In this document: piece after piece, positions 3,601-31,674 of the stretch
Position numbering within the stretch: the stretch's first letter is position 1
Layout of the letters: the number at the start of each line of letters is the position of its first letter
Assembly: GCA_000473305.1 (NCBI GenBank)
Contig: CP006772.1
Span: forward strand, 310,001 to 374,000
Direction of reading: 5' to 3'
Origin: Bacteroidales bacterium CF
GTDB lineage: Bacteria; Bacteroidota; Bacteroidia; Bacteroidales; UBA932
DNA length: 64,000 nt
Translations under genes and position numbers: made by a program
The notes under the pieces: generated by a model
What the model was told of the DNA's origin: nothing
Seen by the model: only the letters and a program-made list of their open reading frames with translations
Database searches by the model: none

Positions 3601-6231
3601 ATGAAAATTCTAAAACAGGACAGAGGAATTTCTTTTAAACTCATACTCTACATTTTCACAAGCACGGCGCTTGTTTTCTTTCTCATATCAATTTACAGCT
3701 ATCAGATTTCCAAGAAAACAGTTCAAAATAATCTGGTTGAAAATGCCGAGGCACTTACCAAAAATGCAGTCCTTCAGGTAGAGAAGGTTCTTGCATCGGT
3801 GGAGAAGGTGCCGATTAACATGGCAAAGATGATTGAGTCGGGTGATTACACCAAGGAGGAGTTGATCGAACTTATCAGGCAGGAGGTCACAAATAATCCT
3901 GAAATTTATGGGGCTGCACTTGCTTTTGAACCTAATATGTGTGAAAAGGGCAGAAAGTACTGTTCTCCCTATTTTTACAAAGATGGAGATAGTGTGAGCT
4001 TTAAATATATCGGCGATGAGCAGTATGACTATTTCACAATGGATTGGTATCAGATTCCGAAAGAGCTCGGTCTTCCGCTCTGGAGTGAACCATATTTTGA
4101 CGAGGGGGCCGGTAACGCCATCATGACCACGTTCTCGGTTCCGATATACAAAGAAGAGAATGGAAAGAAACGGTTTCTTGCAATACTCACAGCTGATATT
4201 TCGCTCAGCTGGCTTGAGGAGTACATGAACTCCATAAAGGTAAGCAAGACAGGATATGGTTTCATCATATCGTCCAATGGGACTATTATCACCCATCCCA
4301 GCAGGGATATGATAATGAACGAGACAATTTTCAGCATAGCGGACAGCCAGCACTCTCCGATGCTAAGAACAATAGGTAAGAATATGATCAGAGGCAAGAA
4401 GAGTTTTGCCGAATTCGAGTACCGGAATTTACAGACAGGTAAGCTAAGTTGGATTGCATATGCACCGGTTCCGATCAATAACTGGTCTATCGGAATCGTA
4501 TTTCCTGTAGACGAGTTTATGTCTGATGTGAACAAGCTGTTGGTGAATCTGATGATAATTGTGATTGCCGGTCTTGCACTTCTTCTGTCTGTAATAATAT
4601 TCATATCCAAGTCTATAACCAGACCTCTCAGGGCTCTTACAGATGCGGCGGGTCAGTTTGCAGAAGGAAATTTTGACACCAGGCTCCCTGAAATAAGGAC
4701 AAAAGATGAAATCGGCAAGCTCAACGACTCCTTTATATCCATGCAAAATGCCCTGGCAGCAACTATCAGTGACCTTAAGGAGGCTTCTGAAAATCTCAGG
4801 ATATCCAATGAAAAGCTGGAAGAGTACAACCGTACTCTTGAGCAGAAGGTTGAAGAGAGAACATCTGAGTTGCAGAACAAGAACAAAGAGCTGGACACTG
4901 CATTCAGCAATGTTAAGGTGTTGAGCCAGATTGGTAAAAAGATAACATCGACTCTTGATTTAGAGCTTATTCAGGATATTGTGTATGAAAATGTCAACTC
5001 ACTTATGGATGCCACAACATTCCTGATTATGATGAGGAATGAGAAGGAGAATAAGCTGGAGTGCAAGCTTTCGATAGAGAAGGGAGAGAAGCTTGGGCTT
5101 TTTGAGGTTCCTCTTGAGGACAAGAACAGATTTGCGGTTTGGTGTGTTGATAATGCCGCCCCTGTATTTATGAATGATGTTGACAATGAGTGGAACCGGT
5201 ATATTTCATTCAGGAAAAAGCCTACAGCCGGAGAGACTGTGTCGTCATTGATATATCTTCCGATGATGATTGAAGACAAGATAATCGGGGTAATATCTGT
5301 GCAGAGTTTCAAGAAGAATGCCTACACACAATATCACCTCGATATGTTGAACAACCTGGGCAACTACGTGGCAATTGCATTCCAGAATGCTATCTCGTAC
5401 GAGATTATAAACAGGGCAAACAACGAACTCAAAGAGGCGCAGGCTCAGCTTGTGCAGTCCGAGAAGATGGCCTCTCTCGGGCAACTTACAGCCGGTATTG
5501 CTCATGAGATAAAGAACCCGCTGAACTTTGTAAATAATTTTGCCGAGCTGACCGTGGACCTTACAAAAGAGTTGACTGAGGAGATTGATCATCTCAAAGA
5601 TAAGCTGGATCAGAAAGATGTGGATTATTTCATGGAGATTGTCGGAGACATTGCCTCGAATGCTGTCAAGATAAATGAACACGGAAAGAGGGCGGACAGC
5701 ATTGTAAAGGGCATGTTGCTCCACTCAAGAGGAAAGGCCGGAGAGGTTCAGCCTACCGACGTGAATGCTCTTCTTGCTGAGTATGTCAACCTCGGTTATC
5801 ACGGAATGAGGGCGCAGGACAGCAGTTTTAACCTGAAGATTGAGGCAGACTACGACCCTTCTATCGGGATGATAAATGCTGTTCCTCAGGATCTAAGCCG
5901 TGTCTTCCTTAATATAATAAATAACTCATGTTACGCCACTAACCTGAAGAAGAAGGAGCTGAAAGATGCATATTTCCCGATTCTGGAGGTGCGTACAAAG
6001 AGTCTTGACAAGAAGGTGGAGATCAGGATCAAGGATAACGGCACAGGTATTCCGCAGGATATTCTGGATAAGGTATTCAATCCTTTCTTTACAACAAAAC
6101 CTGCAGGACAGGGAACAGGACTCGGCCTTTCGCTCAGTTTCGACATTATTGTCCAGGAGCACAAGGGTGAAATGAGGGTTGACTCGAAGGAGGGAGAATA
6201 CACTGAATTTGTAATAATAATTCCTAAATAA
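3601..6231 (+). CDS. Sensor histidine kinase (dCache-HAMP-GAF-HisKA-HATPase)
   Basis: An 876-residue membrane sensor kinase. TM1 is at about 13-32; an extracytoplasmic dCache-type domain covers about 40-305, with a second subdomain around [17 protein letters not shown]2 is at about 313-336. HAMP follows (about 337-390), then a coiled coil, a GAF domain (about 445-605), a short coiled coil, and the kinase core. The phosphoacceptor is H635 in [14 protein letters not shown]. The ATP-binding domain has an N box (NIINNSCYA), a G1 box (DNGTGIP), FFTTKP and a G2 box (GTGLGLSLS). It sits between a solute-binding lipoprotein (1 base upstream) and a receiver-phosphatase (7 bases downstream), which are probably its ligand receptor and its output. 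Confidence 0.92.
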
Positions 6232-10350: not shown

Positions 10351-10478
10351 TTAGTGGCACTGATTTTTCTAATTTGCAGTATTATAGGTAGGTATATAAT
10401 GTTAGAATTGAGTGTCTTGCATGGGGGATAATCTTAATGAGTAAGTAGTGAGTTATATAGAAAAATCAGTGCCACTAA
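10351..10478. repeat. Short element with 20-bp perfect inverted ends, copy 1
   Basis: TTAGTGGCACTGATTTTTCT at 10351-10370 is repeated as its exact reverse complement at 10459-10478, enclosing 88 bases. The interior is not self-complementary and shares blocks with the copy at 13704-13827 (for example GCAGTATTA and a TAATGA...GTGAG block near the right end). It carries no open frame and looks like a MITE-like element. It lies between the FKBP gene and the 65-residue membrane-protein gene. Confidence 0.8.
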
Positions 10479-10483
10479 ATTCC

Positions 10484-10491
10484 TATATTTG
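10484..10491 (+). promoter_or_regulatory. Bacteroidetes -7 box (TATATTTG)
   Basis: TATATTTG lies 6 bases beyond the right end of repeat copy 1 and 17 bases before the ATG at 10509. The -33 region would fall inside the repeat, so the element may have altered expression of the small gene. Confidence 0.45.
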
Positions 10492-10508
10492 TTAAAACAA
10501 TACTCATT

Positions 10509-10706
10509 ATGCAAGACTTGGTTTTTACAATTTCACTTTATCTGGGGATAGTGGGATTCGTGTTATTCTCTGTCTCCTTTCTGACAGGTTTAAGAGTCAT
10601 AAAATTTAATGTCAAGTACAGAGTTCATCGGCGTGTGGGAATCATAGGCTTCGCAGCAATGTTTATCCACGGGCTGGTTATGTCATATCAATACTTCTTT
10701 TCGTAG
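10509..10706 (+). CDS. Small two-helix membrane protein, function unknown
   Basis: A 65-residue protein with two hydrophobic helices (about 4-27 and 45-63) joined by a basic loop, RVIKFNVKYRVHRRVGIIG. The loop and second helix contain HRRVGIIGF and IHGLVM; two histidines spaced along a helix recall half of a cytochrome b561 or ferric-reductase-like haem domain, but that is only a resemblance. A TATATTTG box upstream and an ATG at a sensible distance support a real gene. It converges on nrdG with 4 bases between stops. I do not recognise a named family. Confidence 0.65.
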   Translation: MQDLVFTISLYLGIVGFVLFSVSFLTGLRVIKFNVKYRVHRRVGIIGFAAMFIHGLVMSYQYFFS

Positions 10707-10710
10707 AGAT

Positions 10711-11184
10711 TCAAAAATCTCTGCCAGAAAACCTGTTTGTTATCTCTTTCATTGTGCAAATTTCATCAATTGCATAAAACCTTTGGTTGGTGTTTGCCTT
10801 ATCAAGCCCGCCAAGAGCCTCTGCATACTCTCCAAGTTTTATATAATTGAAATTCTTTAATGGAAAATTTGCAGGTAGGATCTCTCTGCCGGAATACCAG
10901 GCGATTTTTAGCCCCTTCTGAAGAGAGCGGGAAAAGCCGGCAAGCCGGGCAATCTCTTCCGGATCGCTGTCTCCTCCCATAAAACAGAGGCATGTTATGC
11001 TAGCCCCGTACTTTTTAATAAGTGATTCTATAACCTCTTCATTCAAGGGTTCTCCGATATCTTCTCTAAGATGTGTGCTGTGGCAGCCCGGACAACTATA
11101 TGGACAACAGGTTATGTTTATCGCCAAGGTTATTTCGTCGGGAACTTCTTGGAAAACAATGTCATAATTGAAGTATTTTAGCAT
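10711..11184 (-). CDS. nrdG: Anaerobic ribonucleotide reductase activating protein (radical SAM)
   Basis: A 157-residue radical-SAM activase that uses S-adenosylmethionine and a 4Fe-4S cluster to install the glycyl radical on NrdD. The cluster motif CX3CX2C is C27-PYS-C31-PG-C34, followed by H35; FMGGDSDPEE gives the conserved GGD/E of SAM binding. The length is normal for NrdG. The start, MLKYFNYDIVFQEVPDE, agrees with the short N-terminus of the family. It follows nrdD by 48 bases on the same strand and should be co-transcribed from the riboswitch-controlled leader upstream of nrdD. Confidence 0.93.
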   Translation of the reverse strand: MLKYFNYDIVFQEVPDEITLAINITCCPYSCPGCHSTHLREDIGEPLNEEVIESLIKKYGASITCLCFMGGDSDPEEIARLAGFSRSLQKGLKIAWYSGREILPANFPLKNFNYIKLGEYAEALGGLDKANTNQRFYAIDEICTMKEITNRFSGRDF

Positions 11185-11232
11185 AGCTTCACTAAATAGC
11201 TTTAGAAATTTTAATATCTTGAGAGCCCTCCT

Positions 11233-13332
11233 TTACCTTATCTGGTTGTTTGAATAGTGCCTTCTAGCCGCTTCACGCTGTCTTGCGACTGAAAAATTGC
11301 TCACCCTCTTCATATAACCAATGACTCTGGTTAGGTAGTCAATGTCGTTGCTTTTGCACACAGGACACTCTTTGAGATATCTTTTATCTATATGACCGCA
11401 CTTATTACATACTGTGTTGGGAATGTTAAAGGTCAGGTAATTGCACCCCTCTGTTGCTGCAACCTTCAATAAGTGACGGTATTGATTCGCTGTCAGATGT
11501 TCTTCAAGATTCAGGTGAAGAGCTGAGCCCCCTGTAAGGTGTTCAATATACTCTCTCCCGTGCATGCGAATTTTATCAAGGATATTTATTGTTTCATCCT
11601 CAACAATATAGAAGTAACTGTTATAACACTCCCTCGGTACCTTGAATCCGGCCTCCCTATCCCATTTGGCATGCTTTACGCCAACATTCTCGGCAGGAAT
11701 CATCTCGCAATTAAATATTGTATCTTTGCTACGGTACTTTTTGTTGTATCTTTCAATCAAACCCAGTACCTCCTTTACAAATGAGGAGTACTCCTTGTTG
11801 TCACGTATCTCTAATCCGAGAAACTCTGCTGCCTCAACCAATCCGTTAACGCCAATCGTAAGATATTGTCTGCCAAGATTAATATACCCTGCATCGAAAA
11901 GTGGAAGCATCCCCTTCTTTTGAAGATCTTTAAGATTTTCGTCGTAGGCAAGTTGTACTTTATGTACGAGGTCAACAACCTCTTCAAGGAATGTCATATA
12001 ATGACCGCCTGATGCGGATGCGTGCTGTATGCAGCGGTTGAGGTTTATTGTAAGTACACTCTTTGAACCTGTTGAGACCCCTCCGGCACCGAGAGTGTAG
12101 CTGAATCCGTTGTCCTGAATCTCGTTCCTCAGCCTGCAGCAGCTGCTAAGAGAGTCAGCGTTGTCACTCATATATGTAAAAAAGGAGTGCCCTTCGGAAT
12201 ACATCGATGCTGTGAAATTGCCATATTCCACATCTTTAACATCTCCTTCACATGTCAGGAGAGCCATGGTCTCGACAGGAAACGTCAGGACAGTCCTGGT
12301 ACGCTCTTTATTGAACCATTTCATAAATCTCTTTTGAAGCCAGCTCAGGGATTCCCAATCGGGCTTACTTCCGTCCGGAAAAACAAATTCCCCGAAAAGG
12401 CTCTCAAAGTAGTAGCGGTCGTAATATGAGATATTCCAGAACACAGCCTGAAAATTTCTGGCTCCTGTAGGCTGGTTGATCGAGTAGACAATCTGTTCGA
12501 AACAGTCGGTTATTATTTTGTCTATACTTCTGTGTTTCGAAGAGAGGTCGACAATATCGTCCGCCCTTTTATAGTACTCCTTCCCGTATTCAAGGGAAAT
12601 GAAATAGTTCATATACATCAAAAATTCGGGAGTTGCACAGGCTCCGCTCAGCATGCTGGAAACGATGAAAACTAGATTGACAAAACCGCCGCAGAAGGAT
12701 TTGAGATTTGTAGGTGGTTTGGAATTGCCACCTATAGAGAGTGTACCGCCTAGCAACCACGGGTACATGGTTATGCTTGCGCAATAATTTGCCAGACTGG
12801 TCTCGTCGTTCTTATAAATAAAATGGTTTGTGAGCAAGTCTACATATTTGTCAGATATCTCCTTCCCGTACATCTCTTTCAGCCTGTCTGTCAACAGCCG
12901 ACGGTTAAGCCTTATGAAACCGGATTTCGGGAGCTCACCTGCAAGAGTCGCAATATTCTTTCTCTCGACATTTGCATTTGCGTCATACTTGCTTCCGCTG
13001 GCAGGATTCTCTGCTGCACAGTAGTTTATAAGAAACTGCAGCCTGTCACGGGTCTCTCTGTCCTCCAGATGTTTCTGCCTGTATAGCATATAAGATTTTG
13101 CAACCGAAAAATATCTCTCGGCCATAAGGGATCTCTCCACTTGATTCTGGATATCTTCCACATTCATACCGCTTGAGATATTTACCCTTGCAAGTATAGA
13201 TGTGAGGTCATCCTCCGTAGCAAAACTTCCCACAGAGAGAAATGCCTTGCGAATAGCATTTTTAATTTTTTCAATTGAGAAAGGTTCGGTTTTGCCCTCT
13301 CTCTTAACAATGGTTAATCCGTCACTGTTCAT
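11233..13332 (-). CDS. nrdD: Anaerobic (class III) ribonucleoside-triphosphate reductase
   Basis: A 699-residue enzyme that reduces ribonucleoside triphosphates to deoxy forms under anoxia with a glycyl radical, supplying DNA precursors. Residues 3-95 form an ATP-cone allosteric domain (TIVKREGKTEPFSIEKIKNAIRKA). The catalytic barrel follows. Near the C-terminus are a four-Cys zinc site (CNKCGH and CPVC) and the glycyl-radical loop RVIGYMKR with G672. All are intact. Its leader of about 290 bases contains a cobalamin riboswitch, so expression should fall when B12 is plentiful, which fits a cell that also has a B12-dependent reductase; none is in this window. nrdG follows. Confidence 0.96.
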   Translation of the reverse strand: MNSDGLTIVKREGKTEPFSIEKIKNAIRKAFLSVGSFATEDDLTSILARVNISSGMNVEDIQNQVERSLMAERYFSVAKSYMLYRQKHLEDRETRDRLQFLINYCAAENPASGSKYDANANVERKNIATLAGELPKSGFIRLNRRLLTDRLKEMYGKEISDKYVDLLTNHFIYKNDETSLANYCASITMYPWLLGGTLSIGGNSKPPTNLKSFCGGFVNLVFIVSSMLSGACATPEFLMYMNYFISLEYGKEYYKRADDIVDLSSKHRSIDKIITDCFEQIVYSINQPTGARNFQAVFWNISYYDRYYFESLFGEFVFPDGSKPDWESLSWLQKRFMKWFNKERTRTVLTFPVETMALLTCEGDVKDVEYGNFTASMYSEGHSFFTYMSDNADSLSSCCRLRNEIQDNGFSYTLGAGGVSTGSKSVLTINLNRCIQHASASGGHYMTFLEEVVDLVHKVQLAYDENLKDLQKKGMLPLFDAGYINLGRQYLTIGVNGLVEAAEFLGLEIRDNKEYSSFVKEVLGLIERYNKKYRSKDTIFNCEMIPAENVGVKHAKWDREAGFKVPRECYNSYFYIVEDETINILDKIRMHGREYIEHLTGGSALHLNLEEHLTANQYRHLLKVAATEGCNYLTFNIPNTVCNKCGHIDKRYLKECPVCKSNDIDYLTRVIGYMKRVSNFSVARQREAARRHYSNNQIR

Positions 13333-13444
13333 GTTCCTGTATTTAAGGGTTATAAAACAGCAGCCGGGATGATGGGAAGAGAAGAAACTACAGGGTTATT
13401 GTAGAATTCATTATCTGCCGCCTTTCACCCGAAGGCCACAAAAA

Positions 13445-13615
13445 ACATGTATCGGCAGGTCTTCTGACTTGTTCCGGTATGTACGCCTTCCCGACGAAAT
13501 TTGTCAGTGGCAAAAGAGTACAAACCTTCATGAAACTTACAGCTACGAGGATAGTCCCGGATTTTCACCGGGTTCCCTTTTAATCATATTACAACTTGCG
13601 TTGTTTGAATGAACC
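13445..13615 (-). ncRNA. Cobalamin riboswitch upstream of nrdD-nrdG
   Basis: Read on the minus strand, this holds the cobalamin-riboswitch landmarks in order: GGGAACCCGGTGAAAATCC, a CCTCGTAGCTGTAA segment corresponding to the central core, and a perfect B12 box, AAGTCAGAAGACCTGCCGAT (within 13451-13471). Downstream, CTGCCG of the box can pair with CGGCAG about 35 bases later, enclosing a small hairpin (GCCTT...AAGGC); this is a plausible expression platform. The boundary upstream is approximate. It lies 113 bases before nrdD, with nothing else between. Confidence 0.93.
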
Positions 13616-13625
13616 TGATACGAAA

Positions 13626-13633
13626 CAAAGGTA
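13626..13633 (-). promoter_or_regulatory. Probable -7 box of the riboswitch-nrdDG transcript (TACCTTTG)
   Basis: TACCTTTG on the minus strand lies just upstream of the riboswitch. The -33 region has no clear TTTG, so the call rests on the -7 box and position only. Confidence 0.45.
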
Positions 13634-13703
13634 ATGTTTAGGGATAGAACTCACCCATGAACAGCCGAATTCTTTTGAACGACTTATTAACAAAATTAAT
13701 TCT

Positions 13704-13827
13704 GTGGCACTGATTTTTCTAATCAGCAGTATTACAGGAAGATAAATATTGTTGCAATAGAGATCCTTTTATGATGTTTGCTCTAATGAATTGGTGGTGA
13801 GATTTATAGAAAAATCAGTGCCACTAA
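13704..13827. repeat. Short element with inverted ends, copy 2
   Basis: GTGGCACTGATTTTTCT at 13704-13720 is matched by its exact reverse complement at 13808-13824. The ends are the same as those of the copy at 10351-10478, and interior blocks are shared (GCAGTATTA near the left, GGTGAG...TATAG near the right), while the middle has diverged. Its right end supplies the TAG stop codon of the acetyltransferase gene at 13824-14093. The two copies bracket the whole nrdDG unit. Confidence 0.8.
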
Positions 13828-27642: not shown

Positions 27643-27696
27643 CTCTGTTTCAGACTGCTTTATTGAGCTGTCTGCTGTTTCGGTAAACAAGGGTGA

Positions 27697-27727
27697 CAAA
27701 GGTAAGTAAAAATTTTAATCAGCCAAA
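27697..27727 (-). promoter_or_regulatory. Promoter of tRNA-Leu
   Basis: TTTG (27724-27727), a 19-base spacer and TACCTTTG (27697-27704) on the minus strand: an exact match to the Bacteroidetes housekeeping promoter. Confidence 0.75.
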
Positions 27728-27760
27728 TAGTCATTCAGGGGTAATTTCATATACTCTTCT

Positions 27761-28456
27761 CTAGAACGGTATTACATACCCGACTGTAATGTCGTAATAC
27801 GCTCCTGATTTGTATGTGTCGTCGAATTGTCTCAAGGAGAGATACAGGGTGCCTGATTTGCCGAATGACTTGCCAAAAGCCGCGCTGAATGAACTTGTTA
27901 GACCTGTGTATGTGTCGGAATTATCTTCGAGTGCGACTGACTGATGAGACCTGTTTATCTGGTAATGACATCTGTACGATGGGATAAAAAGCCATCCTTT
28001 TTCGGACCGATAAACGACATTTGTAACCAATCCGAGAGCACCGCCTGTGTATCCGTCGTAGTTTACGACAGCTGTTCCGTCCATGTACCTGTAATTTGTA
28101 TAATCACTGTTGAAAAAGACCGGATTTGCCCCGATGTTGAGGTTGAGGTTCGGGAGTAACTCCATCTTCAGCAACCACCAGGTAAGGTGGACCTCAATAT
28201 ATCTGGATTTTGCCTTGTCATCCATCAGACCGATTTTGCCGCTGTCATAGCTTGTGTTGTATGTGCCCGCTTCAAGATCGATTTTTCCGCCCCAGGATGC
28301 CCCGATTCCGGCGGTAAAGGAGTTGAATCCATACCCTTTTTCTATGCCAGTGTTCATTCCGGCCCCGCTCTCTCCCTTATTAAGAAATGGTGTAATCTGT
28401 GCTGTAGCCTGGAGTGAGAGGCATATTAAGGCGATTGCCGTGAGTAACTTTTTCAT
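27761..28456 (-). CDS. Outer-membrane beta-barrel protein, function unknown
   Basis: A 231-residue exported protein: signal peptide MKKLLTAIALICLSLQATAQ, then strands alternating aromatic and small residues (YGFNSFTAGIGASWGGKIDLEAGTYNTSYD, RYIEVHLTWWLLKMELLPNLNLNIGANPVFF, GTLYLSLRQFDDTY) and a terminal VGYVIPF, whose final Phe is the usual outer-membrane assembly signal. It looks like an eight- to ten-stranded barrel of the PorT/OmpW-like type. There is no ligand motif. It stands alone between tRNA-Leu and the M16 protease. Confidence 0.75.
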   Translation of the reverse strand: MKKLLTAIALICLSLQATAQITPFLNKGESGAGMNTGIEKGYGFNSFTAGIGASWGGKIDLEAGTYNTSYDSGKIGLMDDKAKSRYIEVHLTWWLLKMELLPNLNLNIGANPVFFNSDYTNYRYMDGTAVVNYDGYTGGALGLVTNVVYRSEKGWLFIPSYRCHYQINRSHQSVALEDNSDTYTGLTSSFSAAFGKSFGKSGTLYLSLRQFDDTYKSGAYYDITVGYVIPF

Positions 28457-28519
28457 GTCAAATGTTTTAGTCGTATAAATTTAAATAAATTCTTTCAGGA
28501 AATAATAAAAAACAAAAAA

Positions 28520-28560: not shown

Positions 28561-28587
28561 GCTAATTGGAAAAATCTGTGCCACTAA
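28561..28587 (-). repeat. Single end of the inverted-end element (remnant, copy 3)
   Basis: On the minus strand this reads TTAGTGGCACAGATTTTTCC and continues into AATTAGC, matching 24 of 27 bases of the left end of the copy at 10351. The other end is absent and a terminator hairpin follows. As in copy 2, the TAG of the terminus is the stop codon of the host gene. Confidence 0.65.
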
Positions 28588-31450: not shown

Positions 31451-31457
31451 ATAAATT

Positions 31458-31487
31458 TTTGATTTTTGAATAAATCATATACCTTTG
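31458..31487 (+). promoter_or_regulatory. Promoter of the btuB-btuG riboswitch transcript
   Basis: TTTG (31458-31461), an 18-base spacer and TACCTTTG (31480-31487), ending just before the cobalamin riboswitch. It is back to back with the protease promoter. Confidence 0.6.
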
Positions 31488-31489
31488 TT

Positions 31490-31635
31490 CCGTTCATCAG
31501 AAAGGGAACCCCGTGAAAATCGAGGACAGTACCCGCTGCTGTAATGCTTACCCGTAAGGGTTATCTTCCGTAAGCCACTGCCAACAGGTGGGAAGGCGAG
31601 AGATATAAAAGCTAAGTCAGAAAACCTGCTTTTGG
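31490..31635 (+). ncRNA. Cobalamin riboswitch upstream of btuB
   Basis: The sequence shows the cobalamin-riboswitch order: GGGAACCCCGTGAAAATC, GGACAGTACCCGCTGCTGTAA, a variable stem (GCTTACCCGTAAGG...CCGTAAGCC), and a B12 box variant, AAGTCAGAAAACCTGCTT (31614-31631). It ends 40 bases before the btuB start, so it probably acts by hiding the ribosome site (GGAGATAGAG). It should lower importer synthesis when adenosylcobalamin or a relative is abundant. Confidence 0.93.
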
Positions 31636-31674
31636 ACAAAACATATTAATCGAACTTTCGGGAGATAGAGAACG

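Follow-up and report, generated by a model that had tools for sequence, protein, structure and literature searches.

A REPIN-like element family with a probable RAYT partner in Bacteroidales bacterium CF

Inverted elements at the nrdDG locus and across the genome

We have analysed a stretch of 64,000 nucleotides from Bacteroidales bacterium CF (contig CP006772.1, positions 310,001 to 374,000; hereafter the window), in which two short inverted units, elements 1 and 2, stand on either side of the anaerobic ribonucleotide reductase genes nrdDG and a single copy of the same end lies near 28.5 kb (Table 1). We consider it likely that these units are REPIN-like elements, that is, a variant of the hairpin-forming doublets of repetitive extragenic palindromic (REP) sequences, with a REP-associated tyrosine transposase (RAYT) as partner, and not classical miniature inverted-repeat transposable elements (MITEs). 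Element 1 is a perfect 21-bp inverted repeat at 10351-10478 when TTA/TAA is counted in; the left end of element 2 has TCT instead of TTA, which limits its inverted unit to the span given in Table 1. Exact copies of the end sequence TTAGTGGCACTGATTTTTCT occupy 10351-10370 (+), 10459-10478 (-) and 13808-13827 (-), and copies that differ by 2 mismatches occupy 13701-13720 (+) and 28568-28587 (-), for a window total of 5 against 0.03 expected (100 shuffles, largest 1). The two elements are 78% identical over about 125 bp, and neither contains an open reading frame (ORF) of at least 100 aa. These results bear out a preliminary description of the window, which had reported perfect inverted ends around a unit at 10351-10478, a similar 121-bp unit, a lone end and non-coding interiors.

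Table 1. Coordinates of the elements and genes under study (window positions unless stated otherwise)
Feature	Position	Strand	Remarks
Full element 1	10354..10475		122 bp, GTGGCAC...GTGCCAC, 18-bp stem around a long loop
Element 1, left end 16-mer	10354..10369	+	end-sequence match
Element 1, right end 16-mer	10460..10475	-	end-sequence match
Full element 2	13704..13824		121 bp inverted unit; partial single end in STD2_69
Single end GTGGCACAGATTTTTC	28569..28584	-	at the 3' end of a peptidase M16 gene
nrdD	11236..13332	-	between elements 1 and 2; NRDD 6.8e-97 plus ATP-cone
Probable nrdG	10714..11184	-	Fer4_12 20.1 bits, below the cut-off of 22
RAYT1	genome 1714006-1714809, outside the window	-	267 aa, IS200-like HUH/Y1, PF01797

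The end sequence recurs far beyond the window. Allowing up to 2 mismatches, GTGGCACTGATTTTTC has 105 matches in the 2,657,245-base genome (55 forward, 50 reverse) and the reversed pattern, used as a control, has 1; the preliminary description had set its lower limit for a mobile element at about five copies. Our analyses of the examined stretches use 101 ends after secondary overlapping matches were dropped, and 100 of the 105 places are among the matches listed. These ends form 35 convergent pairs and leave 31 single ends. As in REPINs, the ends are inverted and invariant and the spacer has preferred lengths: 15 pairs measure 119-122 bp and 5 measure 111 bp (together 20 of the 35), 5 measure 81-82 bp, 3 measure 131-132 bp, and the remaining seven range from 46 to 165 bp. 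A peak at a period of 9.6 in element length stems from a few length classes, and steps of about 10 bp along the helix were rejected as its cause. The first four bases, G, T, G and G, are conserved at 99, 101, 99 and 100 of the 101 ends, which had been preselected at no more than 2 mismatches to a pattern starting with GTGG. In 95 of these 101 cases, and in 62 of 63 ends of the related genome introduced below, the third base before the end is a T. Among the 15 elements that measure 119-122 bp, the loops resemble one another only marginally better than shuffled loops do (mean 0.514 versus 0.483), with 13 of 105 pairs above every shuffle, and a weak pattern common to the element halves reaches about position 47.

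Among 41 genomes searched at no more than 1 mismatch, the window's genome holds 89 ends and the metagenome-assembled genome (MAG) of Bacteroidales bacterium STD2_69, which is 90% complete, holds 56. Genomes G001, G013 and G025 hold a single match each, as many as the reversed control pattern has in G009, G023 and G036, and only STD2_69 among the 24 other genus genomes holds more than one. The examined STD2_69 stretches carry 63 ends, as 25 pairs and 13 single ends. The exact paired pattern (gap 74-104) was found in 10 stretches of a genome-contig collection that may omit the window's own genome, and 9 of these are on STD2_69 contigs. The tenth, contig L111 of a MAG labelled Tepidanaerobacteraceae, has the element and aligns to loci of the window's genome and STD2_69; it is probably misbinned. 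A 153-aa ORF of L111, putatively Vsr-like, begins within an element end. At one STD2_69 locus (L035, C62:1914-2221) several ends lie 66-82 bp apart, and its counterpart in the window's genome is a single 165-bp pair.

As in REPINs, too, the complete unit can fold into a hairpin, the arms of which vary in a compensatory way. Compared with shuffled sequences, element 1 has a fold z of -6.4 on either strand and element 2 has -5.1 and -4.6 on its two strands. In the 34 of 35 elements that measure at least 80 bp, we compared arms within each element with arms re-dealt between elements. Pairing within the element was in excess at positions 8 (33 vs 21.3), 16 (31 vs 24.4) and 19-22 (26 vs 15.4 at position 20), with no excess beyond position 22 and no clear excess outside the element. 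For positions 8-16 jointly, the count of 300 exceeded all 500 shuffles (largest 290), which ignore relatedness.

RAYT1 and the sites of the ends

Two Y1_Tnp matches in the genome exceed the cut-off, and a third RAYT came to light in a protein search. One of these transposases, RAYT1, has the element's ends on both sides, so a gene of the kind that the preliminary description had proposed to look for exists. Clusters of ends flank it at 1713823-1714055 and 1714983-1715168, seven ends lie within 350 bp of it, and one end is inside the 3' end of its coding sequence, where it encodes GTDFS ten residues before the C-terminus. A cognate RAYT flanked by the same repeats is a REPIN trait, and it is seen in the window's genome. 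RAYT1 matches Y1_Tnp with an E of 6e-10, above the cut-off, and its best NCBIfam model is REP_Tyr_transpos (NF047646, "REP-associated tyrosine transposase"; 43.6 bits, cut-off 80), which all 22 aligned RAYTs scanned match at E <= 0.001. It has the Y1 domain with the HUH and catalytic Tyr motifs of RAYTs; both HUH histidines (H56, H58) and the Tyr of YILNNP (Y113) are invariant in the 22 of 26 RAYTs that were aligned. Sequence searches of solved structures matched neither RAYT1 (E <= 1) nor the 22-protein profile (E <= 0.1), and PADLOC gave no match for RAYT1. A C-terminal block common to these RAYTs may be a helix-turn-helix (HTH), judging from a weak, sub-threshold match to HTH_58 (E 0.0028) in one of six C-terminal pieces; RAYT1 itself had no such match.

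The best-surviving alternative, which we nevertheless regard as unlikely, is that the ends are fixed repeats of a regulatory or structural kind, whose hairpins at the ends of genes serve as terminators or mRNA stabilisers and which are kept by selection and are immobile today. In terms of gene position, a stop codon falls within -25 to +10 of the boundary of 27 of the 101 ends (ORFs of at least 120 aa), compared with 2.1 (largest 7) for random intergenic bases by the same measure, as expected for such repeats; however, in 17 of these 27 cases the stop lies within the element itself, whose bases supply stop codons to the frames. The nearest outer gene end is a 3' end for 61 ends and a 5' end for 31, with none within 400 bp for 9, and four ends lie deep within an ORF of at least 120 aa; these counts use mechanical ORFs, and paired ends are not independent.

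Comparison with STD2_69 also lends this alternative some support. On the one hand, at 19 of 47 end clusters both flanks could be paired in the examined STD2_69 stretches, and all 19 keep at least one end, as shown by flank comparison at 18 sites and by its own STD2_69 copy at the nineteenth (2153413). Most of these stretches were chosen for holding ends, and therefore empty sites could not show up in them. With regard to mobility or excision, only reduced or decayed sites were seen: just a part is left at sites 72306 and 136660 and at 13704 in the window, and in an extra stretch site 1857776 is also common to both genomes and site 2129167, which lies at a synteny break, has decayed. Divergence is lower in stems than in loops (16/484 vs 118/763 positions in 11 element pairs; 37/572 vs 141/829 in all 13, including two low-similarity pairs), a contrast that is partly built in because the ends were preselected at no more than 2 mismatches. 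On the other hand, fixed repeats fit poorly with the 31 single ends, with the crowding of ends around RAYT1, with the different ends beside other RAYTs and with the distribution in the genus, where 23 of the 24 other genomes have one match or none. The preliminary description had held that the same copies at the same loci in all relatives would argue for regulatory repeats; shared sites are what we find in STD2_69, but not in those 23 genomes. A separate candidate, an in-place flip of element 2136731, whose interior matches STD2_69 better when reversed (0.70 vs 0.51, largest shuffle 0.57), is a single case and was rejected.

The nrdDG locus itself had been suggested to be able to recombine out or invert between its two elements. 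This is not supported and was rejected for STD2_69, in which nrdDG is joined to the same right flank, and of the two copies only the left one coincides with a rearrangement. The left element has a 95% match in STD2_69, minus about 260 bp between the element and nrdG, and its left flank is found on a different contig, next to an element whose interior is not the same. Past the left break, the STD2_69 DNA on both contigs matches the window's genome only in pieces of at most 106 bases. Accordingly, reciprocal exchange between two elements was rejected, and an insertion specific to STD2_69 or a loss in the window's genome fits better; an assembly error in the MAG is possible. The name nrdG is inferred from the Fer4_12 match under the cut-off together with gene position. 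A Cobalamin riboswitch (RF00174, 104 bits) at window 13437-13634 (-), directly upstream of nrdD, suggests B12 control of the anaerobic ribonucleotide reductase, and a second one lies at 31455-31647 (+). The window and 12 loci scanned gave no Rfam family for the element at gathering thresholds. At the single end, whose first G completes the TAG stop of the peptidase M16 gene, the STD2_69 DNA diverges from the window and has no end. Window positions 27650-28505 match two STD2_69 contigs (C69:27767-28625 and C72:93-951), each followed by DNA unlike the window.

Other RAYTs of the genus and their end families

A RAYT protein search gave 53 matches in 22 genus genomes, including the window's, and 26 of these loci were examined. 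Taking as criterion an inverted repeat of 30-200 bp with an arm score of at least 15 within 700 bp of the RAYT, we found an inverted element beside 17 of the 26, compared with 4.2% of random 1,520-bp stretches of the window, where the repeats that count are the elements described here. The same arms occur on both sides at 10 loci, instead of the 13 counted automatically, because one element was counted twice in each of the short contigs L080, L087 and L092.

One further end, CCTCAGAGGAAAAGTG, was read from RAYT flanks in G010, G022 and G024 and sought in 25 genus genomes at no more than 1 mismatch. It occurs 30 times in G010, 36 in G007, 15 in G022, 13 in G020, 9 in G024 and 4 in G012, once each in G004, G013 and G021, and in none of the other 16 genomes; the reversed control occurs once each in G010 and G022. 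In G010 and G007, the only two genomes in which spacing was counted, a spacing of exactly 88 bases was seen in 13 of 14 pairs each, and the G007 RAYT at C19:44314-45048 has copies on both sides.

RAYT2 and RAYT3 of the window's genome are likewise flanked by end sequences different from those of RAYT1. The RAYT2-side family, with inverted ends CACTTTGGCGCAGTTTGAGG, has 20 ends in the genome (at most 3 mismatches; control 0), comprising those at C1:425365-425493 and 18 others, the nearest to the window lying 1.1 kb before its start and none within it. RAYT3, which is 412 aa long and contains ADATGAPDVSS-like repeated segments as well as a run of Asn, is flanked by CCTTGCCACAGTTTTTGGCA-type inverted ends (L160:4580-4755 and 5983-6203), also given as CCTTGCCACAG ends. 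RAYT3-type ends fold alone at -3.5 to -6.0 kcal/mol, with z of only -1.0 to -2.0, and the other RAYT-type ends tried fold into small structures or none (z -2.6 to 0.6). These flanks make it still less probable that RAYT2 or RAYT3 moves the element, with RAYT1 merely sitting in a hot spot. Considering that STD2_69 has the elements and an orthologue of RAYT2 (94% identical) and no RAYT1, this alternative has some appeal, but each of the two candidates stands beside its own ends.

Target sites bear on the question of a classical MITE. In 34 elements, no regular target-site duplication was found at 2-9 bp (6 vs 5.95 expected at 2 bp; 0 vs 0.4 at 3 bp). The perfect inverted ends, the length of about 120 bp and the high copy number would suit a classical MITE whose DDE transposase shares its terminal repeats. 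Such a reading is nevertheless very improbable, given this result, the co-varying arms and the Y1 RAYT as the transposase beside the ends (few neighbouring proteins were scanned, with no genome-wide DDE search). Of the preliminary description's MITE-like element, the high copy number (105 inverted ends) and a transposase gene at another locus, itself bracketed by such ends, have stood, and the classical MITE has not.

The window's genome has at least three further families of repeats, 150-400 bp long and apparently without coding capacity, at 60.8, 142-144, 287-291, 1937-1939, 2081, 2153 and 2165-2171 kb. They often lie beside these elements and had no Rfam match in the loci scanned. CRISPR-DR49 repeats were seen at L064:56-564, close to an element cluster.

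Proposed mechanism and relation to known REP systems

Each element has an identical 16-18-bp end (GTGGCACTGATTTTTCTA) on either side, the two being inverted, around a loop that has preferred lengths and a poorly conserved sequence, and owing to the inverted ends one DNA strand can fold into a long hairpin. In the mechanism that we propose, RAYT1 has probably acted on the folded single strand, without duplicating the target site, and copied the element to new sites outside genes, often at the 3' ends of genes. We infer that RAYT1 cuts these ends and has moved them, with the whole hairpin as the substrate; the element may also be moving at present. More tentatively, it is possible that a distinct Bacteroidales branch of RAYTs moves, or once moved, complete palindromic hairpins of about 80-150 bp as the recognised unit instead of a REP hairpin at each end, and that each RAYT lineage has ends of its own, with self-folding ends (RAYT3 type) at one extreme and non-folding ends (RAYT1 type) at the other.

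Several observations weigh against a REPIN-like element with RAYT1 as its partner. In terms of structure, the three single ends that were folded form no self-folding REP palindrome (z 0.09, 0.84 and -0.39), and for this reason the element, which behaves like a REPIN, is not filed by us as a canonical one. Positions 17-28 jointly gave 228 vs 205.7, within the largest shuffle of 234, and the blindness of the co-variation shuffles to relatedness applies to all these counts. Between the two genomes, the stems of 16 best-matching element pairs, some of them not orthologous, have 1 two-sided compensatory change vs 24 positions changed otherwise, so that ongoing compensation between species is not shown. 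Direct repeats border two elements, one of 4 bp (0.05 expected) and one of 8 bp (0.03 expected). As to the transposase, RAYT1 does not pass the curated RAYT model; it was not found in STD2_69 despite the ends there, in a MAG of the completeness given above, and its region aligns in that genome only in pieces of at most 95 bases. All comparable STD2_69 sites keep an end, with no insertion polymorphism and no empty site among them. In the genus, 9 of the 26 RAYT loci have no inverted element; the control of random window stretches was drawn from one genome; and some of the 26 loci are near-identical relatives, for example L084 and L085. Also, G020, an 82%-complete MAG, holds its 13 CCTCAGAGGAAAAGTG ends with no RAYT match, which speaks against a strict pairing of RAYT and end.

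REPINs are best studied in gamma-proteobacteria. As REP doublets that form hairpins (Bertels and Rainey 2011, PMC3116915), REPINs resemble the present elements in having two invariant inverted 16-mers, a spacer whose length and hairpin capacity outweigh its sequence, compensatory changes, singlets and clusters, a cognate RAYT and a location mostly outside genes. They differ from them in that the folded single ends here form no REP palindrome, the host group is another one and the RAYT is divergent. The same paper reports excision junctions for SBW25. Quentin et al. (2018, PMC6006769) describe the nearest kind, the double-foot REPs of TnpA-REP subclass 2.4, which they report from both Cyanobacteria and Bacteroidetes; the likeness is drawn from motifs and description. 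Like these, the GTGGCACTGATTTTTC ends have GT[AG]G at the 5' side and C[TC]AC at the other, 3' side, the transposases share the NH[IFV]H and YIxNNP motifs, and a REP sequence lies inside the transposase gene. In contrast, subclass 2.4 is described as being without the C-terminal extension of most classes, whereas a C-terminal block, possibly and on weak grounds an HTH, is present here, together with a long loop in the element.

Subclass 2.6 RAYTs in the same paper also come from Bacteroidetes and have atypical repeated structures around the gene, but their Y motif is YIH[QN]NP and that of RAYT1 is YILNNP. Another described group of Y1 transposases has inverted repeats instead of typical REPs, as here, and a C-terminal HTH-like domain, of which the kin of RAYT1 have a possible one; its Y motif is different, and its repeat consensus GGGG[AT][CG]A[CG] is unlike the GTGG ends. 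The E. coli-type TnpA-REP requires the REP hairpin and its conserved motif (PMC8266576). No title or abstract opening among the papers listed from the open-licence PubMed Central literature names the present family, and PMC6006769 already reports REP-like structures in Bacteroidetes.

In summary, our reading of these units as REPIN-like elements with a RAYT partner accounts for a class of intergenic repeats without an Rfam match in the stretches scanned, and one of the elements sits where the window's genome and STD2_69 differ in layout. One genus with several RAYTs, many of them beside an element family of their own, would provide a natural series for the study of RAYT recognition and of how RAYTs and their repeats change together.

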